Origin: Acidiphilium multivorum AIU301
GTDB taxonomy: Bacteria > Pseudomonadota > Alphaproteobacteria > Acetobacterales > Acetobacteraceae
Reading direction: 5' to 3'
Length of the DNA: 64,000 nucleotides
Assembly: GCF_000202835.1 (NCBI RefSeq)
Contig: NC_015187.1
Coordinates: forward strand, 1 to 64,000
In this document: piece by piece, positions 28,185 through 55,283 of the stretch
Position numbering within the stretch: the stretch's first letter is position 1
Layout: the number at the start of each line of letters is the position of its first letter
Notes under the pieces: model-generated
Seen by the model: only the letters and a program-made list of their open reading frames with translations
What the model was told of the DNA's origin: nothing
Databases searched by the model: none
Made by a program: the position numbers and the translations under genes

Positions 28185-28523
28185 ATGCCCGAGCCCGAAA
28201 CCGCCCCGATGCCCCCGAAAGATGACCGCCTCGATGCCGTCATCCAGGCGCTGCGGCTGATGATCGAGACGCAGAACACGCACAGCCAAATGCTGGCGCG
28301 GTTGATCGAGCTGGCGACCCCTTCGGAAGAAAGCCCGCTTGAGGAATCCCTTGCGGAGATTGCCGGGGCGCTGCGCGATCAGACCACCGCGCTCCTGCAA
28401 ATCGGCACGACGCTGGACGGGCTGGGGGCCGAGGTTGAGGCCGGGGTGATGCGCGGCCTCGCCACCGCGCTAGAGTCCGGCGAGGAGGCTACGCAGCAAG
28501 AGGCGGGCGGAGAGACATGCTGA
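28185..28523 (+). CDS. Small accessory protein upstream of the relaxase
   Basis: 112 aa, acidic, mostly helical: DDRLDAVIQALRLMIETQNT and RDQTTALLQIGTTLDGLGAE suggest coiled-coil oligomerisation. It overlaps the relaxase start by 7 bases (28517-28523), so it is translated with it. The place fits a relaxosome accessory factor, but I see no DNA-binding motif and no clear family. Confidence 0.6.
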   Translation: MPEPETAPMPPKDDRLDAVIQALRLMIETQNTHSQMLARLIELATPSEESPLEESLAEIAGALRDQTTALLQIGTTLDGLGAEVEAGVMRGLATALESGEEATQQEAGGETC

Positions 28524-31500: not shown

Positions 31501-33616
31501 GTTTGCCCGGCGGGCGGTCATCAAGGACGAGGACGAACGCGTTGCCGCAGCGCGTGGCCTGGTGGCGGCCGGCATCAAGGATGGCGGCGATGTGGACCGG
31601 GTGATTGCGCGGTTGCGGGCGCGTGGGGTTGTCGAGACGGGCGTTTCTGCTGGCAACGGTGAGCCCGCGCGCACCCAGATCATCGCGGTCGAGACCGTGC
31701 GGGATGACCCGGACAACCCGGATGTGAAGATCACCACAACCAGGCTGACGACGCGCGCCCATGTTGAGCAGGAGAGCGCGCTGGTCGAGCTGGCGGCACA
31801 GGCGGGCCGGGACCGGCGCGGGACGCTCAACCCGGCCCAGATCAAGCGCGGGATCGCGGCGAGCGGGCTGAGCTTCACCGGCGAACATGGCGTGGCGCAG
31901 CGCCGGATGATCGATCATCTCGGCATGAGCGGCCGGTTCGCGGTGGGGATCGGTGCGGCCGGGGCTGGCAAGACCACGCTGTTGAAGCCACTGGTGGCGG
32001 CGTGGCGTGACCAGGGCGCGGATATTCACGGGATCAGCCTTGGCTGGCGCCAGGCGCGCGAGCTACGCGAAGCCGGGCTGAATACCGAGGCCGAGACCGG
32101 CGGGCGTGACACGATCGCGGCCGTGTCGGTGTTCATCAACCGGGTGGAGAGCGGCCGGCTGGATTTGTCCAACCGCAGCGTCGTAGTGATCGATGAGCTG
32201 GGCACGATCGGCACGCGCCAGATGCTTGATCTGTTGCGGCTTCAGGAGCGGCACGGGTTCCGCATGGTGGCGATCGGTGATCCGAAGCAATGCCAGTCGA
32301 TCGAGGCGGGCCAGGTGATCGGCCTTCTCGAAAAAGGGCTGGGCGAGGTGCCCTCCATCGAAAGCAGCGTGCGGCAGACCAATGAACGCGCGCGCGAAAT
32401 CGCGGGCTTGCTGCGCAAAGGTGGCGCCGAAGCCGTTGGCAAGGCGCTGGATATGAAGCGGCAGGACGGCACGGCCGAGATTGTCGCCGGTGGTCATAGC
32501 GAGGTGATTGCGCGGGCCGCCGCGCTCTGGGATGAGCGTAGGGCCGCGAACGCTGACAGGTCGCGCTTTACGCTTTCGATCAGCACTCCGACCAATCAGG
32601 ACGCGCGCGCGATTGGCGAGGCGATCCGGCAACGGCTGCTGGCCTCTGGCGAGCTGGGGCAGAGCTGCATGACGCTGGCGGCGATCGACAAGAATACCGG
32701 CGAGCACTACGCCATGCCGATCGCCACTGGCGAAAAAATCCGGCTATTCGCCCGGACCAACGCCGCGATGCTGGATGGCGGCAAGGGCGCGATCGGGGAT
32801 AACGGCTCGATCCTCGAAATCACCAGCATCCGCGACGAGGGCCTGGTGCTGCGGAACGACCATGGCCGCGAGGGCTTTGTGAAGTGGGACACGTTGGCCG
32901 ACAAGGAAACCGGCCGGATGCGGCTGGCCTACGGCTATGCCATGACCACCAACACGGCCCAGGGCATCACCACGACCGAGCATATCTTTGTAACACCGGG
33001 CGGCTCGCAGACCACGGACGGCTTCAAGACCTATGTATCCGGGTCGAGGCACCGGGAGCGGGATTACTGGCTCACCTCGGAAGGCGCCGAGCGTCAGGAG
33101 ATCGCGGGGCGGCGGCCGTTGGGTGATCCGCGTCCCATCCGCGAGCACGACATCTGGACGAACTGGACGCGGAACATCGCGCGCCAGCCTGAAAAGACCA
33201 ATGCGCTCGATTTGGTGAAGATCGGCGAAGAGGCCCGCCGCAATGCCGCCCGCGCCTTCCTAAAGGGGCTGGCGGCCGACGAAAAGCGCGAGGCCGCTGG
33301 CTTGCCCTCTGACCTGTCCCAGCGTTTCGCGCGCACCCAGGCCCGTGCTGGTGCGCAAGGAAGCTTGACTGAAACCATGGCCCGCGCTGCCGAGGAGAAG
33401 GGGCAGGCGCTGGCCCGCATCGAGCGGGCGGCCCCTGCCGTGCGGGCAGCTGTGGCGGCGGGCTGGGAGCGGGCGCGGCCGTTGATCGAGGCAGCGCATC
33501 GGAGCGCCCGGGCGCGGCTACAGAGAGCGCTGGAGGGGCATCGGCGCCAGGCGCAGCACCAAGCCGAGGAACGGCCGGTTGAACAGGAAAGCCGGAAGCG
33601 CGGACGCGGGCGGTAG
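28517..33616 (+). CDS. TrwC/TraA-type (MOBF) conjugative relaxase-helicase with an embedded Toprim primase segment
   Basis: 1699 aa, much longer than TrwC (966). The N-terminus has a Tyr pair (Tyr38-Tyr39 in MATYYQRG), the likely nicking residues. Two copies of the LLAG(N/K)RADG element follow (about 100-160). Residues about 260-640 resemble a plasmid DNA primase: a zinc-less CHC2-like region, then Toprim motifs GEGFETV (about 511) and LLADRDN (about 551). A third RADG element and DFTFSADKTISLAW resume the relaxase domain, and DPQLHTHVAVPN (about 820) gives the metal-binding histidines. The C-terminal half is an SF1 helicase with Walker A GAAGAGKTTL (about 1147) and VVVIDELGTIG. It would nick, unwind and perhaps prime the transferred strand. 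Confidence 0.88.
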   Translation: MLTFRAGAASTSSGAAGKMADHLMTMTLPGFEQDMATYYQRGMMAEGGLWQPGTEAAEDNAAATATDAARPGTIPEPRRDMHPAVAAALGIDTSRPLTRDEIAELLAGNRADGEKIAGKQYQRAVTPLAEVFGLDPMRLPTRAELENLLAGKRADGSDLPAAPVEVLPSTRAQDAVPTAPEADETEDRDAALAAEAAALGELGHAPDGPPPWPDDFAPPPMEEAAAYDRDAALAADWQADVARGGEPAVPPRGPAAEERPAEPRAIDVAAALDAAGVPYRTSGGRLRLQATWRGVDSWTVSVNATTGQWTDFAASEGGRFESLVRRLGVKAEAVELDPEAAKAAREAEVRRNAFRKSIAGKVWDEAIPGAGELREPNLRGSVGQKLRQRAAHEARVEEAEGMRAPVRAYLSGRGLDADWLMSQVRLVRPHPNYDSAEVAAGAAVVMLTPMFGQDEDGRVRLTGVQRTYLTEGGAKIGRRMLGASGAWLLHPPAGAAVPIGGHEQARVAGEGFETVASVVQATRQAGVVGYNAGGLVAWAGQFTGSTPVALLADRDNARLHNGRDVGEAGQKAAAKAAALIEANGGEAVYLEPPADVAGGAKGTDWADALRAGGAAGLRQALAVAEASSAADRARIEAKLAPASPSAAPDGPSAQEAEQNQPAPHPELVRLYKALGAKDGNGLSETERANILDGKRADGAALDAADWRNAVNRSKTPIGYVDFTFSADKTISLAWAFAPTEAERNQLAQAHKDAVAATMAEIEQVIGQARKGKGGKEGTEQGRIGWITFDHYTARPTLEIARETADGRTETEIVSVKVAGDPQLHTHVAVPNVIVTESGRVVSLNTLQMHGRIHEWGAIYQAHLAQNLRRAGASIELDRTTGAARLSAVPEEIRAAFSKRTRDALSDAKAYAASVGAEWDRMTGDERIKLLKGGAFASRSAKADDMSDFASWRRQAEERGYQHKSVLQDAAPAETLTEAARLDRAYEAAARVLGEQFARRAVIKDEDERVAAARGLVAAGIKDGGDVDRVIARLRARGVVETGVSAGNGEPARTQIIAVETVRDDPDNPDVKITTTRLTTRAHVEQESALVELAAQAGRDRRGTLNPAQIKRGIAASGLSFTGEHGVAQRRMIDHLGMSGRFAVGIGAAGAGKTTLLKPLVAAWRDQGADIHGISLGWRQARELREAGLNTEAETGGRDTIAAVSVFINRVESGRLDLSNRSVVVIDELGTIGTRQMLDLLRLQERHGFRMVAIGDPKQCQSIEAGQVIGLLEKGLGEVPSIESSVRQTNERAREIAGLLRKGGAEAVGKALDMKRQDGTAEIVAGGHSEVIARAAALWDERRAANADRSRFTLSISTPTNQDARAIGEAIRQRLLASGELGQSCMTLAAIDKNTGEHYAMPIATGEKIRLFARTNAAMLDGGKGAIGDNGSILEITSIRDEGLVLRNDHGREGFVKWDTLADKETGRMRLAYGYAMTTNTAQGITTTEHIFVTPGGSQTTDGFKTYVSGSRHRERDYWLTSEGAERQEIAGRRPLGDPRPIREHDIWTNWTRNIARQPEKTNALDLVKIGEEARRNAARAFLKGLAADEKREAAGLPSDLSQRFARTQARAGAQGSLTETMARAAEEKGQALARIERAAPAVRAAVAAGWERARPLIEAAHRSARARLQRALEGHRRQAQHQAEERPVEQESRKRGRGR

Positions 33617-42970: not shown

Positions 42971-45007
42971 CTATTCAGCCGCTTTGATGGCCTTGCCAGC
43001 AAACCGATTCTCGCCCACACGGACGGCCATCTCAGGCCGCCGGAAATAAATGGCCCGGCCGCAGCGCAGCGGCCGGCCGGATTTCGGGAAGATGATCTGC
43101 TCATCGTCCCGCATGTCGTGCATGATTTCCTCGGCGCGGATGAGTTGGCGTTTCAGCTCATGATAGGTTTTGGTCTGGCCGGTCGAGCGCGTGCCCGCTT
43201 CCAGGCCCTTTGCCGAGTTGCCGGTGTTCGAGCCTTCCGACCAGGCCAGCACGCCATATTCACCGATCGCCGCAGCCAGCTCCTCGGCGACGGCCTTAGT
43301 TTTGACGCCGGCGAAGCCATACCAGCTGACTGATTCAAACCACTTGGCCGGGCCGTCCTGGCCGAACAGCTCGCGAAGCTGGCCGATCGACTGATAGAAC
43401 GGAAACAGCGTAATCTTGTATTTCCGGGCACAGTCGCGGGCGGTTTCGAGGATTTTCATGGGGCCGAGGCGGGCGGCCTCATCGAGCAGGAACAACACGC
43501 GGCCTTCGATCGCGCCATCCGCTTCGTAAGCCGCGTTCAGCAGGGCGCCCGTGATGACGCGGGCGACGGCCGGTGTAGCATCGAGCGCCTTGAGCGGAAT
43601 GTTGATGAAAACCGTGGCCTTGCCGAGCGTCAGCTCAGCGCACCGGAACGTGTTGCCGGAGACGAGATCCGCATAAGCGGCGGTGGAAAGCCAAGCCGTG
43701 TCTTGGGTGGCGTTTTTGTAGATGCCGCTAAAGGTCTCATCCACAATGTCCTTCAAGCTCCCGGCCAGGTCACGGGCCAGACGGCTTTGCGAGTTCTTGT
43801 GAATATGGGCCAGGATGTTCCGCAGCTCTTTTTCAGGGGTGACGATGGCCGCGCGGACAGCGCGCAAGGTCTTTTCGTGCGGTTCCAGGCGTTCATCCCA
43901 GAGCATGTGCGCGAGCAGCGCCGTCACCAGCTCCTTGCCGCTGTTCTTGAAGAAGGAGGCGTTCTCATCGCCGCCTTGCTTGGTATCGCCGCAAACCCAC
44001 TCAACCACGGCCTGCACGTCGATTTCCGCGAGCAGGGAGGATACATCGATCCAGTCCAGCACGTTAAACCCGACTTCGCGGGCCGTGCGGGGATCAAGCA
44101 TATAGACCTTGTGGCCCATGGCCTCGCGCGCCTGGCGCAGCATCGGCCCCAGCTCCACCGAGGGGTCAAGGACAATGGCCGAGCCTGTCCATGTCAGCAG
44201 TGTGGAAATGGCCGTTGTCGTCTTATAGCCGCCCGATCCGGCGAACATCATGCAATGTGTTGAGCCAATCTCGCATGGATCGATAAGCAGAGGTGCCTTG
44301 CCCCCCTGCCCCCAGCTTGCACGATCCTTCGGCCGGAACGGCATGCTGGCAACGCTATCGCGGTGAACCTCGTAAGCCTCGCCCACGACAAGCCCGCCAT
44401 ATTCCGGGGTAGGCCCCGGAAACCGGGCGCGGGCCTCCTCCATCGTCATCCAGCGGGCATGCCCGTGGTTGTCGGTTGGGGCACGGATCGGCGCATCGCG
44501 GATGGCCTCGATGCCGGGGGGCTTGTCGAGGCTGTAGTCCTTGCCCTTGGCGAAGCTGCCGTTCTCCAGGGGGCGGGTGGTGAGCATGATGTGGGCGTGA
44601 GGTTGCGTCTCGCCGTCCTGTGCCTTGGGGGCGTGGATGGCGATATCGGCGACGAGGCCCTTGCTGGCGAACTCGGCGCGGGCGAACTCGCGGACCAGAC
44701 CGGCCTGTTCGGCGGTGTTCAGTTCGCGCGGGAGGGCGACCAGGACTTCCTTGGCGGTGCGGGCATCCTTGCGCTTCTCGGCGGCATCGGCGGCATTCCA
44801 CAGGCGTTCGCGATCGTGGACCCATTCGGGCGCGTTCTCTGGTGCGACGATCTCGGAGAGTTCGACGTCGCCCTTGTGGGTGTAGGCATGATCCAGTTCC
44901 TGGCGCTGGTCGTGCAGGCTGGTGCGATGCCGATAGGCGGCAGCGGCGACGCAGGATCGACCCTGACCCCGGCTGATATTCTTGATCTCGCAACGATAGA
45001 TTGCCAC
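42971..45007 (-). CDS. Chimera: MOBQ relaxase N-terminus fused to VirD4-type coupling protein body
   Basis: 678 aa. Residues 1-about 156 are a MobA/MobL relaxase: MAIYRCEIKNISRGQGRS, AAAAYRHRTS (Tyr25, nicking residue) and QPHAHIML (His137, His139). From about 160 the sequence is a type IV coupling protein: HARWMTMEEARARFPGP, Walker A-like AGSGGYKTTT (256-265), VLFLLDEAARLGPMKIL (Walker B) and FPFYQSIGQLRELFG. The N-terminal membrane anchor of the coupling protein is missing and encoded at 53908-54216. The missing relaxase C-terminus is at 49545-50119. Neither half is likely to do its normal job. The frame is continuous, so a fusion protein could be made. Confidence 0.85.
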   Translation of the reverse strand: MAIYRCEIKNISRGQGRSCVAAAAYRHRTSLHDQRQELDHAYTHKGDVELSEIVAPENAPEWVHDRERLWNAADAAEKRKDARTAKEVLVALPRELNTAEQAGLVREFARAEFASKGLVADIAIHAPKAQDGETQPHAHIMLTTRPLENGSFAKGKDYSLDKPPGIEAIRDAPIRAPTDNHGHARWMTMEEARARFPGPTPEYGGLVVGEAYEVHRDSVASMPFRPKDRASWGQGGKAPLLIDPCEIGSTHCMMFAGSGGYKTTTAISTLLTWTGSAIVLDPSVELGPMLRQAREAMGHKVYMLDPRTAREVGFNVLDWIDVSSLLAEIDVQAVVEWVCGDTKQGGDENASFFKNSGKELVTALLAHMLWDERLEPHEKTLRAVRAAIVTPEKELRNILAHIHKNSQSRLARDLAGSLKDIVDETFSGIYKNATQDTAWLSTAAYADLVSGNTFRCAELTLGKATVFINIPLKALDATPAVARVITGALLNAAYEADGAIEGRVLFLLDEAARLGPMKILETARDCARKYKITLFPFYQSIGQLRELFGQDGPAKWFESVSWYGFAGVKTKAVAEELAAAIGEYGVLAWSEGSNTGNSAKGLEAGTRSTGQTKTYHELKRQLIRAEEIMHDMRDDEQIIFPKSGRPLRCGRAIYFRRPEMAVRVGENRFAGKAIKAAE

Positions 45008-45200
45008 AGAACGATCTCGACGAATGAGGAAATCAGGTTAGGCTATTTTGGCGTCATGAACAACCACGAAAGGATTGAGTGCGCGGTTACGTGTTGCTGC
45101 GCAACACACGCGGCAGTCCTGGGGGCGTTGCCCCCGCCCTGCGGGCGTCCCCCACCAATGGGCTTGCGCGCCCCTTGGAACCCCGACTAGTTTTTGTGTC
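45008..45200. promoter_or_regulatory. Candidate oriT between mobA and mobC
   Basis: Stem-loops GTGTTGC-TGC-GCAACAC (45091-45107), GGGGGC-GTT-GCCCCC (45121-45135) and GCCC-TGC-GGGC (45136-45146) lie in this divergent gap. On the minus strand, 45161-45179 reads TCCAAGGGGCGCGCAAGCC, which resembles the CCAAGGGCGCAA core I recall for Ti-type/MOBQ origins of transfer. The place between a MOBQ relaxase and a MobC-like gene is the normal one. Confidence 0.55.
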
Positions 45201-45530
45201 ATGGCAAAGCGGACGGACGACGAAATCCTTGCTGATCTCACTGCGAAGCAGCGTGAGATCGAGATGCGGATCAACGCGGTGAAGGCGCGTTCGAAAGAAC
45301 GCGCCCGCAAGGAGGAGACCCGCCGCAAGGTGCTGGTTGGCGCGGTCATCCTTGCGGAAGCGGAGCGGTCTGAGGCCGCGAAGCAGCGGCTCCAAGCCCT
45401 GCTCGACAAGCATCTTGTCCGTCCTGTCGACCGCGAGGTGTTCGGACTGCCGCCTCGACCAGACCGTCCCGGCCAGGTGGGCGTATCCGGCGACGGAACC
45501 TTAAGCCCGGATGGTGACGACAGCCCATGA
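45201..45530 (+). CDS. MobC/TraD-like relaxosome accessory protein
   Basis: 109 aa from ATG 45201. Helical, strongly charged N-terminus (DDEILADLTAKQREIEMRIN, then ARSKERARKEETRRKVLVGA), matching the short TraD/MobC-type proteins encoded divergently from MOBQ relaxases. The Pro-rich C-terminus is variable in the group. It would help the relaxase melt or recognise oriT. It now faces only the N-terminal half of the relaxase gene. Confidence 0.65.
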   Translation: MAKRTDDEILADLTAKQREIEMRINAVKARSKERARKEETRRKVLVGAVILAEAERSEAAKQRLQALLDKHLVRPVDREVFGLPPRPDRPGQVGVSGDGTLSPDGDDSP

Positions 45531-45556
45531 TCGGCAGAGCTTTCTTTCCGGAGTAG

Positions 45557-45627
45557 CCATGACTAGTCACGCCAAGCCATGATTAGTCATGGGATATCAG
45601 AGCGATATGTGCCATGATTAGTCATGG
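45557..45627. promoter_or_regulatory. Three palindromic operators CCATGAyTAGTCAtGG
   Basis: CCATGACTAGTCACG at 45557-45571 and two identical CCATGATTAGTCATGG at 45577-45592 and 45612-45627. The third overlaps the ATG (45624) of the coiled-coil DNA-binding-type gene. Spacings are 20 and 35 bases. This arrangement fits autoregulation of a plasmid regulator, as with KfrA-type proteins. Confidence 0.6.
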
Positions 45628-46163
45628 CGAAGAACAGCAGAGACGGGAATCGAGAGCGCGCCGCCCGGCGCCGGGCGGCGCTAGCAGAGCGCGGGATCAA
45701 GCAAGTCCTGCTTATGGCTCCGGAGCAGGCCCACCCGTTGCTGAAACAAGCGGCTAGCCTGATGATCCGCGACGATGACCCTCTAGAGCCACGGGCGGCG
45801 CTGCGTCGGGCTGGCGGGGCGAATGAGCCCGCGCCGGATGAGGTGTCACCCGATCTTGCTGTTGAACTGGAAGCCGCCAAAGCCCGGATCGTGGAAGTTG
45901 AGCGTCAGGCGGAGGCACGGCTGGCGATTGTGATTGAGGCATCGGAGCGACGGCGGCGAGCCTTGGAGGTTGAGCAGGAGAGAGTCCGGGCTAGCGCCGA
46001 GGAGGCTCAGAAGGCTGCCAAGTCTGCCCAGGAAGCTGAGGAACGGGTGACGGCGGCGCAGCGGCGTGCGGAGAAGGCGGAGGCGGCCATCAGGCAGGCC
46101 AAGGCCCTGCCGGGTATCAAAGGCCGTCTGGTGCGGTTTCTGGCTGGCGACGTTCTGAAATAG
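45624..46163 (+). CDS. KfrA-like coiled-coil regulator (putative)
   Basis: 179 aa. The basic N-terminus (RERAARRRAALAERGIKQVL) with following helices could be a ribbon-helix-helix DNA-binding domain. Residues about 75-160 are an uninterrupted Ala/Glu/Arg-rich coiled coil, and a short hydrophobic basic tail ends the protein. The layout resembles KfrA-type plasmid stability proteins, which bind their own operator and form filaments. The triple palindrome overlapping its start supports autoregulation. Confidence 0.55.
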   Translation: MAKNSRDGNRERAARRRAALAERGIKQVLLMAPEQAHPLLKQAASLMIRDDDPLEPRAALRRAGGANEPAPDEVSPDLAVELEAAKARIVEVERQAEARLAIVIEASERRRRALEVEQERVRASAEEAQKAAKSAQEAEERVTAAQRRAEKAEAAIRQAKALPGIKGRLVRFLAGDVLK

Positions 46164-47280
46164 CAGGAGGCCGCTGCACCGGACTTCTGCACCTGAAATT
46201 CCTACTTCCGGCCTATGGGGCGGGTGTGGTGCGAAATTCGTAAATTACGCACCGACTGGACTTTACTGACGATTAAAGTGACCTATCAGAACAAAGCAAG
46301 CCCATTGATTGATAAACCGAATGTGAGGTGACTCGGGAGGATTTGGCTGATTCAACGTCCGCTTTGATAACAACCTCGGGCAAATTGATGCAAATTGATG
46401 TCGGAGTTATTTCGCGTCTGAGTTCCGCGGCAAGATACATGCGCCCCGAGGGTGCTGAACAGCTCGCCTGGCCGAAGGCGGCGCTATTGATTTTTCTCGT
46501 CTCGATTGCGGCCTGGGCTGCCATTCTGGCGTTGTTCATCTGGCTTTGAATTGCCGGCGCACACGGCACGAGGAAGCTGAGCTAGTCGACCGTCATTCGT
46601 GCCACATCGAACAATCTCTCGGCTCGACGCTCCGGTCCTACAAAAGCATGTATTACAACCAGCCTGATGAATTCAGAGCGCGGTCCGAATCATCGGCACT
46701 GGGATTCTACCTGTTCCTCGCTACAGGGCACGGTAATGGCCGTGAAGATAGAGGGCTATGTCCATGACCACGATGGCGCTAATCATCACAACAGCAAAAG
46801 ACGCGATCGGACGATCATAGAAAATGACGCTTTTCGAGCTGATGCAATCCACAGCACGAATAAGGCGTTGCCGCAGCGGCACCATCCCAAGGGTCCTTTC
46901 TTGTCGAAAATATTACACTTTTTTTATTTTCGATCTTATTGATGTCAAGACCCGCGGAACAGCGGAAATTCCGCATGGCTGATTTTCACGATCTTCTGGC
47001 TGCGCAACCTTAATCAGCCAGGATCCACGACTCGGCGATCTCCAATTCTACTCTCAGGCAGAACGAGTCCGAATAGACGGAACGCCTGCTCCAGAATCCG
47101 TATTATGGAAACGCCCCGGAAGTCGCCGGGAAGTCGTCACATAGTCGCCGCCCGGCACGGCGCCCGAGCCCAGAGTAACCCCGCCACAGAGACTGTCAAA
47201 GCACCCCGCCACAGGCGCGCCAGGGCACCGCGAATACTTGCCTCAGCACCTTCGCCAGCCGCGTGATCGCCGACCCATGA
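46164..47280. other. Gene-poor stretch with at most one small ORF
   Basis: About 1.1 kb with lower coding bias than its surroundings. Apart from the small membrane-protein frame at 46328-46549, no open frame has a good start or recognisable product. 46900-46940 is AT-rich (a T-run near 46920-46930); 47150-47270 is C-rich with repeated CCCCGCCACAG. It may be decayed sequence within the integrated small plasmid. Confidence 0.45.
46328..46549 (+). CDS. Hypothetical small membrane protein
   Basis: 73 aa from a GTG. The C-terminal 25 residues form a strong membrane helix (ALLIFLVSIAAWAAILALFI) after a soluble N-terminal half. No family recognised and no partner gene nearby. The GTG has only a weak ribosome-binding site, so coding status is uncertain. 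Confidence 0.35.
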   Translation: MTREDLADSTSALITTSGKLMQIDVGVISRLSSAARYMRPEGAEQLAWPKAALLIFLVSIAAWAAILALFIWL

Positions 47281-47724
47281 TCACCCCTCACCGGGCCAGA
47301 ATTCAGCGTCCATAACCTGTTCAAAGGACCAGGGGCAGGCGGATGGAAATGTGATCAGATCGAGGTTTGTCTCACGAGCCGCCGCTAGAATGGCTCCTCC
47401 ATAGGCACTTTCCATGGCCTCCGGCAGTTTTGCCTTGAGGCTAGGGTTGTCCGCTAGGTGATCCACAACCTCCCGACGCTGTTCAGCAATGGTCAGCCGC
47501 CAACTGGTCGAACGACCGCCCGGCTGAAATTGCCATTTCAGCAGATGCATCAGCAAAACTTTCAGGCGGCTGACCAGTTCACGCTTCTCCGTCTTGCCCA
47601 TGGTTTCGATCTCCTCGGCGACATGTTGGATATCCGCCTCGGACAGACGGCCCGCCCGCAAAAGTGCCGCCTGTTCATTCGCCCAGGCGTAGAAGTCGCG
47701 GTCATAAAGGGTAGAATTGCTCAT
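47281..47724 (-). CDS. DUF29-family protein
   Basis: 147 aa. LYDRDFYAWANEQAALLRAG, VAEEIETMGKTEKRELVSRL, LLKWQFQPGGRSTSWRLTI and the C-terminal CPWSFEQVMDAEFWP are the standard DUF29 blocks. The family has no established function; it is frequent in cyanobacteria and Acetobacteraceae plasmids. It overlaps the replication gene by 4 bases (47721-47724). Confidence 0.85.
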   Translation of the reverse strand: MSNSTLYDRDFYAWANEQAALLRAGRLSEADIQHVAEEIETMGKTEKRELVSRLKVLLMHLLKWQFQPGGRSTSWRLTIAEQRREVVDHLADNPSLKAKLPEAMESAYGGAILAAARETNLDLITFPSACPWSFEQVMDAEFWPGEG

Positions 47725-48302
47725 TTGGCATTCTCCACACGGAAGGCGTGAGGCTGCCGGGTGGGTAGATCCGGCTCTAGTCCATCGAGACTAGGTTGGG
47801 ATGGAGGGGGTTCACCATCCCCTATCGGCATCTGTCTTTCGCCGGGAAATAACGTGGGAATGCGGCGTAGATCGGCATAATCAAGCGAGGTCGTATCCTG
47901 GTCTTCCAAGTCGGCCACGACTGTTGCCGAGAATGTCGAAAGGCGCAGCTGATCGCGGGGCTGTCCCCAAGCCACTCTGTCGTTGACTACGTAAGCTGCT
48001 TCCTTGCCGCTGCCGATCCGAACGATCTGAATCCACCGTTCTTCAACAAGATCGGCAACAGCACGGCGGACGGTGCGCTCGTGGGTGCCCATGATTTTTG
48101 CCAGTGTTTTTTGGCCGATTACTACAGCATTCTGGTGGCCCATCTGGGCCACCAGATGATGCAGTAGCATGGCTGCACGAGGCTTTCTGGCTATCAAATT
48201 CGCCCAAGCTTCATGCGCCTTGCGCTCGGTTTGTACCCACTGACCAGGTTTAAGCTTAACGGGGGTTCCGATGATGTCCGGGGGTGCGGTCAAACCAGTC
48301 AT
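47721..48302 (-). CDS. Replication initiator of a small plasmid (RepL/HTH type, putative)
   Basis: About 193 aa from ATG 48300-48302 (MTGLTAPPDIIGTPVKLKPG); the frame stays open to 48431, through the palindromic operator. KPRAAMLLHHLVAQMGHQNAVVI and QKTLAKIMGTHERTVRRAVADLVEERWIQIV form a winged-helix domain, followed by YVVNDRVAWGQPRDQLRLSTFSATVV. This is the pattern of small RepL/replication-maintenance proteins found in Acetobacteraceae plasmids. Two strong palindromes lie upstream. It supports the idea that 44.5-50.1 kb is a former independent replicon. Confidence 0.65.
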   Translation of the reverse strand: MTGLTAPPDIIGTPVKLKPGQWVQTERKAHEAWANLIARKPRAAMLLHHLVAQMGHQNAVVIGQKTLAKIMGTHERTVRRAVADLVEERWIQIVRIGSGKEAAYVVNDRVAWGQPRDQLRLSTFSATVVADLEDQDTTSLDYADLRRIPTLFPGERQMPIGDGEPPPSQPSLDGLEPDLPTRQPHAFRVENAK

Positions 48303-48381
48303 GTTTATGTACTTTTCTGTCCAAAATCGTGACTCCAAATTTGTCCGATTAAAAGACTGCCTTGTCAAGTTTTTGGACAGA

Positions 48382-48431
48382 CCCCGGACACAGCTTGTGT
48401 CCGGGGGTGCGGACACAAGCTGTGTCCGCAC
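48382..48431. promoter_or_regulatory. Two adjacent 25-bp palindromes upstream of rep
   Basis: The first is 48382-48406 with arms CCCCGGACACA and TGTGTCCGGGG around GCT. The second is 48407-48431 with arms GTGCGGACACA and TGTGTCCGCAC around AGC. The shared core is CGGACACA-N3-TGTGTCCG. They abut exactly and lie 80-130 bases before the rep start. TTTTTGGACAG and TTGTCCG nearby look like half-sites. Likely initiator-binding sites or operator. Confidence 0.6.
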
Positions 48432-48979
48432 CCCCCCATATAACCAACTGATTTAATTGGAAATTTTTTCGGCCCCTCTTTATGATCTTAGGACTGGGGC
48501 TCCCCCTCATTTTTGTCGTCCCGGTAGTCCACAGGGAACGAGGGCCGCAAGCCGCCCGAAGGGAGGCGAAGCGAGCGGCCCGAACTTCCCTGTGGGCCCA
48601 CCGGGGCGACGGGCAGTACGCGTGCGCGAGCGCGCGAGGCTGCGAAGCCGGGAAGGAGGTGCGGGAAAACCAGATGCGGCAAATCGCGATGCGATTTGAT
48701 CATAAGCGGCGGCCCTGACGGGCCGCGCTGGCGGAAAGTGGGGGCTAGCGCGGGCGCGTTGCGCCCTACGGGTCTCCCGCGCTGCGCTCGACCCGCGCCA
48801 GGCGGTCAGGGGCAGCGGCACGGGAAGCAAAAGCGGCATTGGGGACGAAGCGGCGAGGATGCTCGCCAAACCCCGTCAGACGGGCGTACACGGGTTTTAG
48901 GGGTTTTCCGCTTCTTGGGGTGTCCGAGCCGCAAAGGCCGCTCTACGGCCTCCTGACGGGCTGGAATGGGCATTCTGGA
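48432..48979. other. Non-coding stretch with hairpins
   Basis: About 550 bases without a convincing gene; open frames here have low-complexity Arg/Ala-rich products typical of GC-rich non-coding DNA. Visible hairpins: AAATCGC-GAT-GCGATTT (48681-48697) and GCGGCCC-TGAC-GGGCCGC (48709-48726). Together with the rep palindromes it may contain the vegetative origin. Confidence 0.4.
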
Positions 48980-49543
48980 TTAATAGCCGCGTGGGATGAC
49001 CAGCTTGATATGCCCCTTCGTGGTGTACCAACCGCCGTGCTGGTCACTGCTGGCCTCGAAGCACAGATGACCGCCGCAGGTGTTCCACTCCACCCGAGCG
49101 CCTTTGGCCTTGAGTGCCTTGAGATTGGCCTGCGCGGTCTGGATCTCGGCGTGCAGGGCGATGACCCTGGTGTGGAGGCGGTGGAATTCGTGCCGTTCCC
49201 ACCAGATCGAGGCGATGCTGCCGCTCACCACCAGCAGGACGGCCAGCGCCAGGACGGCGACTGAGCGCAGACTGAGCCAGCGGGTTGCGGTGCGGACCTC
49301 GGCAACCTGCTGGACAACGCCGGCCGCTGCCTGAGCGGTGTCCGAGGCAGCTTTCTTGATCTCTGTCACGGCATCGCTGGCGCCGTCCAGAGCGGTATTG
49401 ATGCTGGTCACGGCCTTGGTGGCGGCCTGATCGACGGAGCGGGTGAGGGCGTCGGGATTGGCTGCCTTCACGGCCTCGGTGCATCTGGCGACCTCGCCGG
49501 CGAGGGCATCCAGAGCGTCTACGATGGGGTTGCCGGTTGCCAT
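48980..49543 (-). CDS. Mobilization-associated membrane protein (MobB-like, putative)
   Basis: 187 aa. The N-terminal 80 residues are a soluble Ala/Asp/Thr-rich helix (repeated DQAATKAVTSINTAL-like heptads). A membrane helix follows (SVAVLALAVLLVVSGSIASI), then a second coiled coil and a C-terminal domain with two Cys (WNTCGGHLCFEA). It lies one base after the mobA 3' fragment in the same direction, as mob accessory genes do. Name by context only. Confidence 0.55.
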   Translation of the reverse strand: MATGNPIVDALDALAGEVARCTEAVKAANPDALTRSVDQAATKAVTSINTALDGASDAVTEIKKAASDTAQAAAGVVQQVAEVRTATRWLSLRSVAVLALAVLLVVSGSIASIWWERHEFHRLHTRVIALHAEIQTAQANLKALKAKGARVEWNTCGGHLCFEASSDQHGGWYTTKGHIKLVIPRGY

Positions 49544-49544
49544 G

Positions 49545-50119
49545 CTACATCTCGATCCCCCGGCTGCGTTCCCGGCCCCGGTCCGGTGTGCGTTGCTGCT
49601 GGCGTTGCTGGTTCTCGTGCTCGCGGGTTTTGAGGATTTTCTCGGCGGCTCGGATGTCCAGCATCTGGGTGGCGCGTTGCATGTCCGGGGTGGCGGTTGC
49701 GGCGATCAGGGCGGAGGGCAGGGGCAAAGCCTGTCTGAGCACGCTGGCGAGGCCGGGGAGGCGTTCGCGCATGGTCTGCATGAGGTTTGCGCCGGCCTGG
49801 CGGACCTGTTCCCAGGAGCGGCTCATGGTGCGGAGCAGGCTGCGATCCTGCCTGACCTGCATGGCGTCCCGGAGGGCGTGAGCCCGCGCGCCGCGTCCCT
49901 GGCGTGCCATCTGCATGGCGACGGGGCCGATCTTGGGTTCCGGGGCGCGGTCCAGTTCCATGGCTCTGGCGGCTGCCCTGATGCGGTCGGGTTCGGGCTG
50001 GGCGGGGTTCTCTGCGGCTGCGAGGGCGGCCTGGCGCTGATCGGCGAGGGAGCGGTGATCGACCCGTTCGAGGCTTCTGGCGCGCTCGAGGGCGCGATTG
50101 CAGTGGGTGGCCCACTGTT
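49545..50119 (-). pseudogene. MOBQ relaxase MobA, C-terminal fragment
   Basis: The frame runs from the Tn3 left end (stop codon inside the terminal repeat) as WATHCNRALERARSLERVDH, RSLADQRQAALAAAEN, and on to the basic end RGRERSRGIEM. WxxHxNRALERAGxxxRxDHRSL is the conserved region that follows the HUH motif in MobA/MobL proteins. An ATG at 49961 could give a 138-aa remnant. The N-terminal part is in the chimeric gene at 44525-45007. About ten to twenty residues between the two pieces are missing. Confidence 0.8.
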
Positions 50120-50157
50120 GGGGTCACCGCACGATCTGTTCAAAATCGTACGCTAAG
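50120..50157 (+). repeat. Tn3 left terminal inverted repeat (38 bp)
   Basis: Begins GGGGTCACCGCACGATCTGT and ends AAAATCGTACGCTAAG; identical to the reverse complement of the right end. The tnpA stop codon is inside it. Confidence 0.93.
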
Positions 50158-53119
50158 CGGCGCGGGGTATGAACGGAGCGCGAACATCGCGTAGCGGCCT
50201 GAAGCTGGCATTGGGATTGGCGGGATTCCAGACATAATCGCCGGTCAGAGCGATGTGTTCCCATCCGAGCGGCGCGACATGCGCCAGGAGATCATCGGGC
50301 ACTGCCGTACCCTGGGCCCGCAGGTGCTGGACGGCCTGGTCGAGATAGATGGTATTCCAGTGGACGATGGCGGCGGTGATGAGACTGAGCCCGGAGGCCC
50401 GGAAGCTCTGATTTTCGAAGGTGCGGTCGCGGATTTCACCCTGGCGATGGAAGAATACGGCGCGGCGCAGGGCATTGCTGGCCTCGCCCTTATTGAGCCC
50501 GGCATGACTGCGCTGGCGCAGAGCGGGATCGGACAGCCATTGCAGGGTGAACAGGGTGCGCTCGATCCGCCCCACAGCCCGTAACGCCCTGGACAGAGTG
50601 TTTCCTCCACCGGCGGCGGCCAGCTTCCGCAAGATGACGGAAGGCAGAACAGTGCCGGCATTGATGGATGCCTTTAACCGCATCAACTCCGGCCATTGCC
50701 CGAGGATGGCGGTGGTTTCGACGGCGTCGCCGATGAGCGGCACCAGCAGCGGCCAGGTGCCTGGCTTTTCTATCGTGTAGAGCTTGCGGTCCCGGAGATC
50801 CTTGATCCTGGGGGCAAACCTGTAACCCAGCAGATGGCAGAGACCGAAGACATGATCGGTCGCGCCGGCGGTATCGGTATAATGCTCGGCGATGCGCAGA
50901 TCGGTCTGGTGGACATGATGCAGCAGCCCGTCGAGCACATAAGGCGCCTCGCTCATCGTCGCGGAGATGACGCGCGTGTGGAACGGTCCGTATTGACCGG
51001 AAACATGGGTGTAGATCACCGCGCCCGGCTCGATGCCGTATTTGGCGTTTACCGAGCCGCCGGCTCCGGCGCGGCCTGCGGCCCGGAAATATTGCCCGTC
51101 CGAAGACGAGCTTGTCCCATCATCCCAGATTGCCGCCATGGGGTGTGCATGGTGCGCATTGATGATGGCGGCGCGGGCGGCGACATAATTGTCATCGCTG
51201 ATGTGCCATTGGGCCACATTGACCAGGTGGTGATAGCTGAGACCGCGCGAGGCGTCCGCCATGCGGGCAAGGCCAAGATTGGTGCCGTCAGCGAGCACCG
51301 CTGCCAGCAGGGCCGCTTTGTCGGTGACGGGGTTACCGGTGCGCAGATGCACGAACCTGTCCGTGAACCCGGTCCAGGCATCGACCTCGCTCAAAACCTC
51401 GGTGATCCGCACCCGCGGCAGCATACTGTTCAGCCGCAGCGCCAGATCGCGAGCCGCGTCGGGCACGGTGGGCGGCGTGCGGGCGATAAAAAGTTTGCCG
51501 TCCTCAATCTCCACCCCGTCGAGGTCGCCCTGCGCGGCCCGGGCGGCCACGAAGGTCAGACGCTCGCGCAGCATCTCTGCCCGGCTTGCGACGTAACGAT
51601 CGGGATCGGCCTCACCATCGATGCCGGTGGCCGCACCCGCCCCGGCCGGAAGCAGATAGGTCTCGAACGCCTGGTAATCGCGGCTGCCAGCGACCCAGAT
51701 ATTACTGCCCCGCAGCTTGTCGCGCAGCACGGCCAGCACCGCTGTTTCATAGAGCCGCCGGTCGGCTGTGCCGCCGGCAAAAATCAATTTCCGCCACTGC
51801 GGCGGCAGGAACGTGGAGGGCGGCCGCTTGGGCAAGCTGCGGATCGCGCCACGGTTCAGGGCGCGGAGAAGTTCGATCGCGGCCAGAACGGGATCGTTCG
51901 GCATATTCGACCGGAAATCGAAGGCGGCCAGGAAGCGGGGGCTGAACCGGCGGAGCACCGTATATCGCTCGGCCGCCGTGACCAAAATATCCTGATCCGC
52001 CACATCGGCGACGGCGCCGATGATCGGCAGCACATCTTCGAGCTGGTTCATGCCGATCTCGCGCTCGATGGCGGTGATCCCATCTTCTCCGGCCTCCTTC
52101 GCCTGGCGAAGGGCGGCGATCGTCCGGCGGAACAGCAGTAGCGCCTTGGCGACATCGCGCCGCGTGGCCTGAAACCGACGCTCATCGCGGTTGCGCGCCC
52201 GGCTGAACAAAGTGCCGACATATTTCTCGAACATGGCAAGCGTCGCGTCCGTCAGACGGGTTTCCAGGCTTGCGATCTGGGCAATGAGAATGGCTGTGCG
52301 CCGCGCCGGCTCCAGATCGGCGATGTGCTGCACGGTCATGAGCGCCCCCTCGTCGGTCAGCCGGACCAGGCGGGCAGCATGGATACGACCAGCCCGTGCG
52401 GGATCAATGCCCATGGCGCGGACATATTCGAGGCGATCGAGCAGGGAGACGATGTTGGAGGGAGCTGGTGATTCCGAATAATCCCGCAGCCAGGCAAAAC
52501 GGGAGCGACGCAACTCGGGATCGACCGTCAGCAGCTCGGTCAGAGCACTGCGCTCCGCATCGGCCATCCCGGCTGCCAGCACCTCGAATGTTTTCTTGCG
52601 TGCTCGGACACGGGCGGCCAGTCCAATTCGCTCCAACACTGTCGCCGAGGGAAGCAATACCCGGCTTTCTCTCAGATGAACGAGCATAGCCTGGATGATG
52701 GGTTCGCCGCGATCTGTGGCCCAAGCCGTATCCGCACCAGCATGTAGGCAGGCGCGCCAGTCATCGAGGCCAAAACTACGCAGACCAGTGAACTTTTGGA
52801 GCTCGACCAAATGCTCCCGACGGGTTTCAGCACGGCGCGCGTATTCCGCAAACAACAAAGGATCGACACCGATCTGTTCAGCAACAAAAGCCAGCGCCGG
52901 CGCCGGTGGATATTCCGATGGATCCAGAGTGCGGCCTGGGAAGCGGAGAACACAGAGTTGCACGGCAAAGCCGAGCCGGTTGCTTGCCCGGCGTCTGACC
53001 CTGACCATAGCGAGGTCAGCAGCATCCAGTACGTAATGCCGGCTCATGGAGGCCATGTCCGTTGGAATTGAAAACAAACGGGCTCGTTGTTCAGCGGATA
53101 AAAGAACGCGGAGTGGCAT
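50153..53119 (-). CDS. tnpA: Tn3-family transposase TnpA
   Basis: 988 aa, the normal length. N-terminal DUF4158 region (RARLFSIPTDMASMSRHYVL), then the DDE_Tnp_Tn3 domain with ATNLGLARMADASRGLSY-like sequence around the first Asp (DGTNLGLARM). FYTHVSGQYGPFHTR-like motif (AVIYTHVSGQYGPF) and the terminal blocks AALGWEHIALTGDYVWN-like (LGWEHIALTGDYVW) are standard. The gene is intact, so the element may be active. Confidence 0.95.
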   Translation of the reverse strand: MPLRVLLSAEQRARLFSIPTDMASMSRHYVLDAADLAMVRVRRRASNRLGFAVQLCVLRFPGRTLDPSEYPPAPALAFVAEQIGVDPLLFAEYARRAETRREHLVELQKFTGLRSFGLDDWRACLHAGADTAWATDRGEPIIQAMLVHLRESRVLLPSATVLERIGLAARVRARKKTFEVLAAGMADAERSALTELLTVDPELRRSRFAWLRDYSESPAPSNIVSLLDRLEYVRAMGIDPARAGRIHAARLVRLTDEGALMTVQHIADLEPARRTAILIAQIASLETRLTDATLAMFEKYVGTLFSRARNRDERRFQATRRDVAKALLLFRRTIAALRQAKEAGEDGITAIEREIGMNQLEDVLPIIGAVADVADQDILVTAAERYTVLRRFSPRFLAAFDFRSNMPNDPVLAAIELLRALNRGAIRSLPKRPPSTFLPPQWRKLIFAGGTADRRLYETAVLAVLRDKLRGSNIWVAGSRDYQAFETYLLPAGAGAATGIDGEADPDRYVASRAEMLRERLTFVAARAAQGDLDGVEIEDGKLFIARTPPTVPDAARDLALRLNSMLPRVRITEVLSEVDAWTGFTDRFVHLRTGNPVTDKAALLAAVLADGTNLGLARMADASRGLSYHHLVNVAQWHISDDNYVAARAAIINAHHAHPMAAIWDDGTSSSSDGQYFRAAGRAGAGGSVNAKYGIEPGAVIYTHVSGQYGPFHTRVISATMSEAPYVLDGLLHHVHQTDLRIAEHYTDTAGATDHVFGLCHLLGYRFAPRIKDLRDRKLYTIEKPGTWPLLVPLIGDAVETTAILGQWPELMRLKASINAGTVLPSVILRKLAAAGGGNTLSRALRAVGRIERTLFTLQWLSDPALRQRSHAGLNKGEASNALRRAVFFHRQGEIRDRTFENQSFRASGLSLITAAIVHWNTIYLDQAVQHLRAQGTAVPDDLLAHVAPLGWEHIALTGDYVWNPANPNASFRPLRDVRAPFIPRAA

Positions 53120-53292
53120 ATCGGGTTCCGGTTGATGAGAAAATTAGCGCCCACCGTGCGTCCGCAAGAGGATCGTTCAACGGACAGATGTAACGGCCTG
53201 GCACTGGTGGCTGTTTCCCTCGGCAACGGATGGATCATTTAACTGGTACGATATCTTTTGCAATGAAGGGGGGTCATACGTTACAATTCCGC
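53120..53292. promoter_or_regulatory. tnpA-tnpR intergenic region, expected res site
   Basis: 173 bases between divergent tnpA and tnpR. In this arrangement the resolution site and both promoters lie here, and TnpR represses both. I could not mark the three resolvase subsites by eye. Confidence 0.5.
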
Positions 53293-53874
53293 ATGGCCCA
53301 CACCCTGATCGGTTACGCCCGCTGTTCAACCGACCGGCAAGATCTCGCCGCGCAACGCGCCGAACTCGAACAGCTCGGGGTAAAGCCGGACCGCATCTAT
53401 ACGGACCATGGCCTCACAGGCACCAATCGTGCCCGCCCCGGGCTTGCTCAAGCCTTGGCGGCGGTGCGTAAAGGCGACACCCTGGTCGTGCCAAAACTCG
53501 ACCGCCTTGCACGCTCCGTTCCAGATGCCCGTGCGATCGCCGATGAACTCATTACCCGCGGTGTCAAACTCGCGCTCGGCGCGGCCGTCTATGACCCAAC
53601 CGACCCAATGGGGAAGATGTTCTTCAACATTCTCGCCACCTTCGCAGAGTTTGAGGCCGACCTGATCCGGTTACGTACCAGAGAAGGCATGGCCATCGCT
53701 CGCGCCAAAGGAAAATTACGCGGCAAAAGGCCGACGCTATCCGAAAGACAACAAAAAGAACTGCGCCGCATGTACGACACTGGCAATTATTCCATCACTG
53801 ATCTCGCAGACCTATTCTCCGTCTCCCGCCCAACCATCTATCGTACCCTCGCCAGGCAGCCCGCCAACGCTTAG
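53293..53874 (+). CDS. tnpR: Tn3-family resolvase TnpR
   Basis: About 193 aa from ATG 53293 (MAHTLIGYARCSTDRQDLAA), where the family starts; the frame is open to 53230. The catalytic Ser is in GYARCST, VVPKLDRLARSVPDARAI and FNILATFAEFEADLIRLRT follow, and a C-terminal HTH (SITDLADLFSVSRPTIYRTL) completes it. It resolves cointegrates at res. Its stop lies in the right terminal repeat. Distinct from the recombinase at 39714. Confidence 0.9.
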   Translation: MAHTLIGYARCSTDRQDLAAQRAELEQLGVKPDRIYTDHGLTGTNRARPGLAQALAAVRKGDTLVVPKLDRLARSVPDARAIADELITRGVKLALGAAVYDPTDPMGKMFFNILATFAEFEADLIRLRTREGMAIARAKGKLRGKRPTLSERQQKELRRMYDTGNYSITDLADLFSVSRPTIYRTLARQPANA

Positions 53875-53907
53875 CGTACGATTTTGAACAGATCGTGCGG
53901 TGACCCC
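53870..53907 (-). repeat. Tn3 right terminal inverted repeat (38 bp)
   Basis: Perfect inverse copy of 50120-50157. Directly to its right is the truncated coupling-protein gene. Confidence 0.93.
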
Positions 53908-54216
53908 ATCGACGGGCTTTGTCGGGGCGTGATCGCGGCGGAGTGACCAGCCGGTGACGCGGCGGCCGCGCACAAGCTGAATGACCCCGGCGAGGAAGGG
54001 GATCGCGAAGGCTGGCACGCCGCTGATGACCAGCCAGACCCGCACGACAGGGTCTCCGCTGGCCTCGAAAAGATAGAGCCACCATTGCCAGAACGGATGC
54101 CGGAAATGCCAGAAAAGCCCGGTCCCGATAAGGAAGATCATCGAGGCGAGGACGGTGAAGAACACCAGGCCGAGCACCAACCCGACGAGGAGCCGCATCA
54201 CGCCGCGCCAGGTCAT
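53908..54216 (-). pseudogene. virD4: VirD4/TraG-type coupling protein, N-terminal fragment
   Basis: About 103 codons before the frame enters the Tn3 end (and stops at 53812). Two to three membrane helices: VMRLLVGLVLGLVFFTVLAS and VRVWLVISGVPAFAIPFLAG. This is the membrane anchor of a type IV coupling protein. The start overlaps the virB11 stop by one base, the usual virB11-virD4 order. The cytoplasmic ATPase body continues in the chimeric gene at 42971-44527 (KPPGIEAIRDAP onwards). Confidence 0.75.
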
Positions 54217-55283
54217 CAGGCGGCCCGCAAGAGGGCGGCGGCTGTTTCACCGCGCCTGGCCGCGTCAGGGCCAAACCAGACCTTGCCGATCCGGTAGGTG
54301 CTGCCGGAAGTCTCGAAGGGGATGATGAGATCGACAGCCGCCGCGAGCAGATCGCAAAGCGTGGCGTCATCAAAGCCAGCACCCTTGGGGGAGCCCTTGA
54401 TGAGCGAAAACAGCTTCTTGAACGCCTGGGCCGGATTGGCCCCGTGAATGGTTGTGATCGAGCCCGGATGCCCGGAAACCACCTCGTTTACATAGGTCCA
54501 TGCCGCATCGTCGCGCAGCTCTTGCAGGAGCACCCGGTTCGGCCGCATGCGAAGGCTGGCCTGCAACAGCGCTTCGGCGTCGATTTTCGCGGTGGAGAGG
54601 CCGTCTTTCGAGTAGAGCAGCCGGACATGATTCGGCTGCGGGATCACCAGCTCCGCCGTGTCCTCGATCGTGATGATCCGCTCCGCCATGGGGATCGCCG
54701 AGATCAGCGTTTTGCTCATCGTGGTTTTGCCGGAGCCGGTGGCACCACAGAGCAGGATGGTCATGCGGCAGCGTACGGCCGCCGCAAGGAAGCCCTCAAG
54801 ATCGCCGGAATCGTAGTATTCCAGGGCTTCCGCAAAATTCCGGGTTTCCCGGTTTTGTGCCCAGGTGTTCCACCCTTCCGACTGATACCGGGAGGTGACG
54901 GACGACAGCGGCGCCACCGTCGAGCCGGGCCGGCGGATCGTCAGACTGACCGTGCCCGTTGGCACGGCCGGCGGCAGACAGACTTGCAGCCGTTCGCCGC
55001 CTGGCAGTTCGGTGGAACAAAGCGGCGACGTGGGGCCAACATCCTGACGGCGCAGCGCGCCGGCGAGCACGGCAATATCTTCCAGCGCCGAGCGATCGAG
55101 CGGCATCTTGTATCGCTCGAAAACGCCGCGCTGGCGCACCCAGCACTCGCCCGGCCTGTTGATGCACAGCTCCTCAGTCGCCCCATCGTTCAGCCAGGGT
55201 TGCAGCGGGGCGAGCAGGAAGCGGAGCAGAGGCGCGGCCGGGCTTTCCGCAACGAGATCATCGGAAAATTCGGTGTCGTTCAT
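54216..55283 (-). CDS. virB11: VirB11 secretion ATPase
   Basis: 355 aa. Walker A GATGSGKTT at about 175, Asp box/Walker B-like region IITIEDTAELV, and HPGSITTIHGANPAQAF (His box), in the order of hexameric VirB11/TadA traffic ATPases. It powers pilus assembly and substrate transfer at the inner membrane. Coupled to the small upstream gene by ATGA and to virD4 downstream by a one-base overlap. Confidence 0.93.
   Translation of the reverse strand: MNDTEFSDDLVAESPAAPLLRFLLAPLQPWLNDGATEELCINRPGECWVRQRGVFERYKMPLDRSALEDIAVLAGALRRQDVGPTSPLCSTELPGGERLQVCLPPAVPTGTVSLTIRRPGSTVAPLSSVTSRYQSEGWNTWAQNRETRNFAEALEYYDSGDLEGFLAAAVRCRMTILLCGATGSGKTTMSKTLISAIPMAERIITIEDTAELVIPQPNHVRLLYSKDGLSTAKIDAEALLQASLRMRPNRVLLQELRDDAAWTYVNEVVSGHPGSITTIHGANPAQAFKKLFSLIKGSPKGAGFDDATLCDLLAAAVDLIIPFETSGSTYRIGKVWFGPDAARRGETAAALLRAA

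Follow-up and report, generated by a model that had tools for sequence, protein, structure and literature searches.

A small MobQ plasmid integrated in virD4 of a VirB-type conjugative plasmid of Acidiphilium multivorum AIU301, with a single Tn3-family transposon at one junction

The window analyzed here, 64,000 bp in length, comprises bases 1-64000 of the 65,564-bp contig C7 of Acidiphilium multivorum AIU301 (genome of 4.21 Mb in 9 contigs). Within it, a small mobilizable plasmid of the MobQ type (hereafter S) sits whole inside virD4, the coupling protein gene of a VirB-type conjugative plasmid (hereafter V), and is opened at one point in its relaxase gene mobA. S spans positions 44496-50119 (approximately 5.62 kb). 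One of its junctions with V is a complete 3,788-bp Tn3-family transposon (hereafter Tn), and the other contains no transposon. According to our analysis, the arrangement probably goes back to a Tn3 cointegrate of the two plasmids from which the second transposon copy was later lost, leaving a locked fusion (rough probability 0.6). An initial annotation of this DNA had recognized the four pieces of the two broken genes, all on the minus strand (42971-45007, 49545-50119 and 53908-54216), and had proposed a small mobilizable plasmid integrated in virD4 with Tn3 at one junction; both proposals are borne out by intact relatives. The uninterrupted virD4 and the small plasmid with intact mobA that it suggested looking for were found, and the references used were mobQ of pACRY07 as well as virD4 of pACRY03, of Acidocella aminolytica and of the strain's own 271-kb contig C1. 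Measured against these, mobA and virD4 are both fully accounted for, with no part lost.

The 5' piece of mobA (44496-45007, minus strand) encodes residues 1-170 followed by a hybrid Asp codon, shares 95.1% of its nucleotides with pACRY07 mobQ and matches the MobQ profile NF041496 above its cut-off. The 3' piece (49545-50119, minus strand) encodes the C-terminal 190 residues and adjoins the left end of the transposon. The former ends and the latter begins at base 1685 of pACRY07 (an overlap of 1 bp), which identifies a whole replicon inserted after opening at a single point. The middle of S (46160-48430, with rep and a DUF29 gene) did not align with pACRY07 at the DNA level, and the completeness of S across this region is therefore deduced from the closure of the circle at mobA and not from a match. 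The body of virD4, a TraG-type coupling protein gene, lies at 42971-44498 (minus strand) and runs from approximately codon 104 to the stop, covering the cytosolic ATPase part (PF02534, PF12696; 93.6% nucleotide identity to pACRY03, 96.5% to A. aminolytica). Its membrane anchor (53908-54216, minus strand; residues 1-103, with two transmembrane-like segments by hydropathy) adjoins the right end of the transposon and is 94.2% identical to pACRY03; together with virB11 it is 97.7% identical to A. aminolytica. The anchor reading frame continues for 31 codons into the transposon, forming a separate open reading frame (ORF) of 134 amino acids (aa). Identities of 92-98% over hundreds of bases exclude chance for the matches of these gene pieces.

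At the junction without a transposon, the mobA sequence runs on to ...CATCCGCGA and switches to virD4 within a CGA common to both genes (44496-44498, minus strand), as resolved by base-level alignments to pACRY07 and to two intact virD4 loci (L002, L063). Bases 1-512 of the resulting chimeric ORF match pACRY07 mobQ (95.1%), and bases 510-2018 match pACRY03 virD4 (93.6%). The initial annotation had placed this junction near 44525-44530, with MobA residues 1 to about 156 retained; the switch lies some 30 bp away, and residues 1-170 are kept. Its argument from TCGAC at the plain junction versus TCGAT at the transposon (4 of 5 bases) falls as worded, since TCGAC lies inside mobA and matches pACRY07 there, and holds once corrected to TCGAT on the transposon side and CGAT on the plain side. 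On intact virD4 (L063, L002), the anchor and body have 4 bp, CGAT, in common; the BLAST table of the virD4 pieces shows a fifth base of overlap, which is the initial G of the transposon. Up to four of the five bases of a Tn3 target duplication are thus kept in virD4, and the duplicated stretch may be 1 to 4 bases long because CGA also belongs to mobA.

The transposon (50120-53907) is bounded by inverted repeats of 40 bp, identical at both ends, at 50120-50159 beside mobA (flank AACAG) and at 53868-53907 beside virD4 (flank TCGAT). It encodes a Tn3-type DDE transposase, TnpA (50153-53119, minus strand; 988 aa; PF01526, NF033527), and a serine resolvase, TnpR (53230-53874, plus strand; 214 aa; PF00239), which together place it in the Tn3 family. 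Elements of this family have terminal inverted repeats of approximately 38-40 bp, in agreement with the repeats seen here, and duplicate 5 bp of their target. The flanks TCGAT and AACAG of the window copy form no target duplication. Three further copies, on contigs C1, C4 and C8 of the genome, show 0 mismatches over 3,788 bp, and four identical copies show recent activity of the element. Perfect 5-bp target duplications frame two of the four (C4, TTAAG; C1, CTTAA). An apparent 8-bp flank common to the C4 copy proved to be a chance extension of the alignment once the flanks were read. The C8 copy (C8:4454-8241) is nested in another Tn3-type tnpA and lacks a clean 5-bp duplication; its flanks are contiguous in the relative locus L058, with 2 extra bases at C8. 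Among the matches listed in 12 other Acidiphilium genomes there was no full copy, the nearest being a stretch of 1,963 bp with 89% identity that lies at the end of a contig. Only a single copy is present on the contig of the window, where a cointegrate would have two in direct repeat, and we read the arrangement as a derivative of a cointegrate rather than a cointegrate itself.

The transposon was very probably involved in fusing the plasmids, since S is opened exactly where it adjoins Tn. We posit that the Tn3 element, carried by either plasmid, would have fused S and V by replicative transposition into V-Tn-S-Tn-V. The second copy may then have dropped out by a deletion running from a CGA in mobA to the CGA in the duplicated virD4 target; with the usual 5-bp duplication in mobA, both CGA repeats would fall at most 5 bp from the transposon ends. 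TnpR resolves cointegrates at res, according to a passage in PMC4133298. With one Tn left there would be a single res site, and the resolvase, for want of a second, should be unable to separate the plasmids, so that the fusion would be locked. Consistent with the loss of a second copy, virD4 retains up to four of the five duplicated bases, where a simple CGA crossover would leave none, and the plain junction lies within 1 bp of the S-Tn border in S, as a lost second copy predicts. Several observations weigh against this account. The two-copy intermediate, S::Tn or V::Tn was not found, the expected 5-bp duplication in mobA is not visible (overlap of at most 1 bp), and the duplication in virD4 could amount to just 1 bp, CGA being common to both genes. 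The CGA microhomology is weak evidence because at least 3 bases in common were also seen for 6.0% of 200,000 simulated random breakpoint pairs. The identical C8 copy also lacks a clean duplication, though no replicon fusion is known there, and relaxed selection is not seen in the virD4 body, as expected of a recent break but also of a protein still in use.

The strongest competitor, which we regard as possible though clearly less probable, is a one-ended or aborted single-end transposition, in which only one transposon end was joined to virD4, Tn together with one full turn of S was carried along or copied, and the other end was joined to the target through the CGA homology. It would account directly for the single Tn copy at one junction, and a target duplication that lost one base would explain the CGAT of the plain side; its product would be identical to that of the lost-copy route, so that the two cannot be separated by sequence. 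One-ended transposition is known for some Tn3-family elements, with endpoints described as random in a passage of PMC4133298, and yet the endpoint here lies approximately 1 bp from the Tn position in the 5.6-kb S, a coincidence that we estimate at about 10 in 5,600 for a tolerance of ±5 bp. The objection does not apply to an aborted single-end event in which S was broken beside Tn. The plain junction is also exactly what an illegitimate crossover at the common CGA would yield if it fused the plasmids first and the transposon landed later on the reciprocal junction. This order of events appears very unlikely to us, because an extra T follows GTCGA before Tn at the reciprocal junction, Tn has no target duplication there, and an independent landing on one junction of a 65-kb plasmid is improbable. 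An assembly artefact at the four identical 3.8-kb repeats, where misjoins are possible as such repeats exceed short reads, is similarly improbable, given that the plain mobA-virD4 junction is free of repeats, that nothing of S is missing where mobA is broken, and that a flank swap cannot explain the window copy because the flanks of the other three copies pair properly (perfect duplications at C4 and C1, one transposase gene at C8).

As a by-product of the fusion, and owing to equal orientation and reading frame, the mobA start of S now runs on into virD4. The resulting in-frame ORF (42971-45007, minus strand), recognized by its alignments and domain matches, encodes a relaxase-coupling protein chimera of 678 aa (MobQ 1-170, D, VirD4 from residue 104 onwards) without the anchor. 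The chimera keeps Y25 of MobQ, presumably its catalytic Tyr, the motif PHAH (136-139), Walker A (GSGGYKTT, 257-264) and Walker B (LFLLDEAA, 505-512). By its MobQ profile, Tyr and HUH motif it belongs to MOBQ, the profile NF041496 being passed narrowly over residues 1-171 (205.6 bits against a cut-off of 200), and PF02534 identifies the VirD4/TraG nucleotide-binding domain with Walker A and B. The relaxase domain, which would extend to about residue 185, is incomplete: intact pACRY07 MobQ aligns with 4ht4 and 2ns6 up to residues 184-186, whereas the chimera does so to residues 160 and 145, respectively, and the last relaxase helix, aligned to both structures in the intact relative, is missing. 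A simple hydropathy scan found no transmembrane-like segment in the chimera, and hence none of the N-terminal membrane anchor typical of coupling proteins. For MobB of CloDF13, a passage in PMC7431656 reports the transmembrane domain to be essential for mobilization. Considering this requirement together with the missing anchor and helix, a functional coupling protein is improbable, and the chimera most likely neither couples the transfer of V itself nor works as a MobQ relaxase.

Divergence of the pieces from their relatives was compared as synonymous and nonsynonymous differences and their rate ratio (dN/dS). Against pACRY03, the virD4 body shows 76 synonymous and 16 nonsynonymous differences in 495 codons (dN/dS 0.059), in line with six virB genes (0.03-0.18), and the anchor 13 and 5 in 102 codons (dN/dS 0.12). 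When the differences to A. aminolytica were polarized with pACRY03, the chimera branch of the body received 15 synonymous and 5 nonsynonymous changes and the Acidocella branch 16 and 7 (3 sites ambiguous); for the anchor the counts were 4 and 2 versus 4 and 0. The virD4 pieces thus show no clear decay, which fits a recent break. In mobA, 13 of the 18 differences to pACRY07 in the 3' piece are nonsynonymous (5 synonymous) versus 5 of 25 in the 5' piece (20 synonymous; Fisher p = 0.0014). This excess is not simply reconciled with a recent break: drift since then would have required longer than the identity of the Tn copies implies, and weaker constraint on the C-terminus, or an older mosaic, is an equally likely cause.

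That selection instead maintains the chimera as a functional relaxase-coupling protein, bringing the DNA of its own plasmid to the VirB channel, is a question of function apart from the route of its origin, and we consider it very unlikely: it is in frame with Y25, PHAH and the Walker motifs retained, and its virD4 body has the low dN/dS given above, but the anchor and last relaxase helix are absent, most of that low ratio must predate the break, equal orientation and frame arise by chance in about 1 of 6 cases by our estimate, and no relative with both halves occurs among the matches listed. There is likewise a slim chance that plasmid fusion created, in a single step, a soluble relaxase-coupling hybrid which remains able to bind a MobQ origin of transfer, presumed just upstream, and which either affects how the fused plasmid is transferred or disturbs the intact coupling protein encoded on C1.

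Judged from the sequence collections searched, the fusion appears to be a single accident and not a known family. A match was obtained in 158 of 299 Acetobacterales genomes (at most 3 candidates per genome scored), and among those listed only the window's own covers both halves (query 2-678); the other coupling protein matches begin at or after residue 147, and the other relaxase matches end at or before residue 171. DNA matches were listed in 7 of 13 Acidiphilium genomes, and apart from the window's own none of these rows spans both halves of the chimera. The best 60 matches listed from 5,000 plasmid records include one place with at least 80% coverage, in an annotated traG of Sinorhizobium chiapasense (query 122-669). 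The relaxase half is covered at none of 9 loci from a one-genome-per-species collection; for two long ORFs with coupling protein matches (L068, L069), no MobQ-like start was seen by eye in the translations, with no domain search run. A scan of viral contigs with the relaxase part returned 4 pattern matches, none a relative, and among the papers listed in literature searches there was no account of this fusion. The conserved fused family that the initial annotation had named as counter-evidence is therefore absent among the matches listed for the 299 genomes, the 5,000 plasmid records and the 9 loci. An intact second virD4 and mobA beyond the window, with other breakpoints, had likewise been named as counter-evidence; the second virD4, on C1, is ordinary and uninterrupted, and of mobA-like matches the genome listing shows just one more, a partial one on the 5.2-kb contig C9 (75% DNA identity over 107 bp; 52% protein identity over residues 2-159).

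Both parents have known relatives. pACRY07 (NC_009473.1), a 5,629-bp MobQ plasmid of Acidiphilium cryptum JF-5, shares with S its mob module of mobQ, a divergent ORF, a second divergent ORF and a membrane protein gene (85-92% nucleotide identity), but it is a separate circular plasmid with intact mobQ and a different middle region. The conjugative pACRY03 (NC_009469.1) of the same strain resembles V in the VirB region and virD4 (92-94%) and in gene order, whereas its virD4 is intact and it contains neither the small plasmid nor Tn. Closest among the intact virD4 matches listed is that of A. aminolytica DSM 11237 (NZ_FQVJ01000024.1; 610 aa, 96.5-97.7%), which has the same gene end and, unlike that of V, is uninterrupted. 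Tn3-family cointegrates likewise carry a complete tnpA/tnpR element with perfect inverted repeats at a replicon-fusion junction, whereas here there is one Tn copy, a plain second junction and no visible duplication on the mobA side. Transposon-mediated replicon fusion is a known kind of mechanism; unusual here are the single transposon copy and the fused gene. The case is resolved to the base, shows a mobilizable plasmid that is presumably locked inside a conjugative plasmid via a single Tn3 copy, and suggests that the loss or absence of one copy may yield a replicon fusion that the resolvase should be unable to reverse. Through such a fusion, the transfer functions of a plasmid can be disabled even though the missing part is still encoded on another replicon of the cell, and the chimera lets one ask whether a fused relaxase and coupling protein can function.

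Contig C7 carries a RepC-type replication protein, a Rieske/molybdopterin oxidoreductase and ArsB. Since a passage in PMC3834237 places an arsenic island of A. multivorum AIU301 on pACMV2 (AP012037), this conjugative VirB-type arsenic plasmid is likely pACMV2. No drug-resistance gene was recognized among the proteins of 30 domain-searched ORFs. The best matches of the transfer and mob genes of the window are on Acidiphilium plasmids and one Acidithiobacillus ferrooxidans plasmid, and a 1,699-aa ORF (28517-33616) is covered by a region annotated as mobF in relatives. Directly upstream of virD4 lies virB11 (54216-55283, minus strand; PF00437), which like virB5, virB6 (both named by position), virB9 and virB10 equals its pACRY03 counterpart in length; virB8 measures 753 bp versus 702 bp, probably by start-codon choice.

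The view that the VirB operon was left without a normal coupling protein is thus correct for V itself and not for the strain, where C1 carries an intact virD4 (100% over 1,821 bp to pACRY03, 94% to the body here). The VirB machine of V would depend on an intact virD4 elsewhere in the genome. The VirB operon of C1 contains a 3.3-kb insertion in a small ORF between virB10 and virB11 (C1 ~147,940-151,243; L021:7941-11244), which holds IS1634-type and IS110-type transposases and leaves a 6-bp overlap in pACRY03 coordinates. From their gene content, V (channel genes, no intact coupling protein) and the C1 plasmid (intact virD4 behind an insertion) might complement each other.

A search for S in 13 Acidiphilium genomes gave matches to parts of it in 11; outside its own contig, none of those listed reaches 700 bp. 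Divergent from mobA, a small ORF at the position of mobC (45177-45530, plus strand) is 88.7% identical in aa to its pACRY07 counterpart; it has no family match and is named by position. The next ORF (45624-46163, plus strand; 76.5% aa identity to pACRY07), putatively labelled KfrA-like in the initial annotation, has no Pfam match. In the middle region, a DUF29 protein (47281-47724, minus strand; PF01724) shares 63% of its aa with contig C9. The adjacent gene (47721-48431, minus strand) encodes a helix-turn-helix protein with 56% aa identity over 177 residues to one of pACRY07; it probably serves as the replication initiator, and its helix-turn-helix Pfam matches lie under the cut-off. At the DNA level this rep gene is 68-76% identical to helix-turn-helix genes of 2.7-3.0 kb plasmids of Escherichia, Citrobacter, Klebsiella and Bordetella. 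A mob-linked membrane protein with one transmembrane segment predicted by hydropathy is encoded at 48980-49543 (minus strand; 86% aa identity to pACRY07). A tRNA-Val called by ARAGORN at 49827-49916 was taken as false, as its position falls within the mobA 3' piece and the corresponding stretch of pACRY07 lacks it. Finally, pACRY05 (NC_009471.1) carries at 7985-8374 a 3' fragment of virD4 (96.8% to that of V), alone near a Tn3 transposase, which is a possible second case of virD4 breakage.

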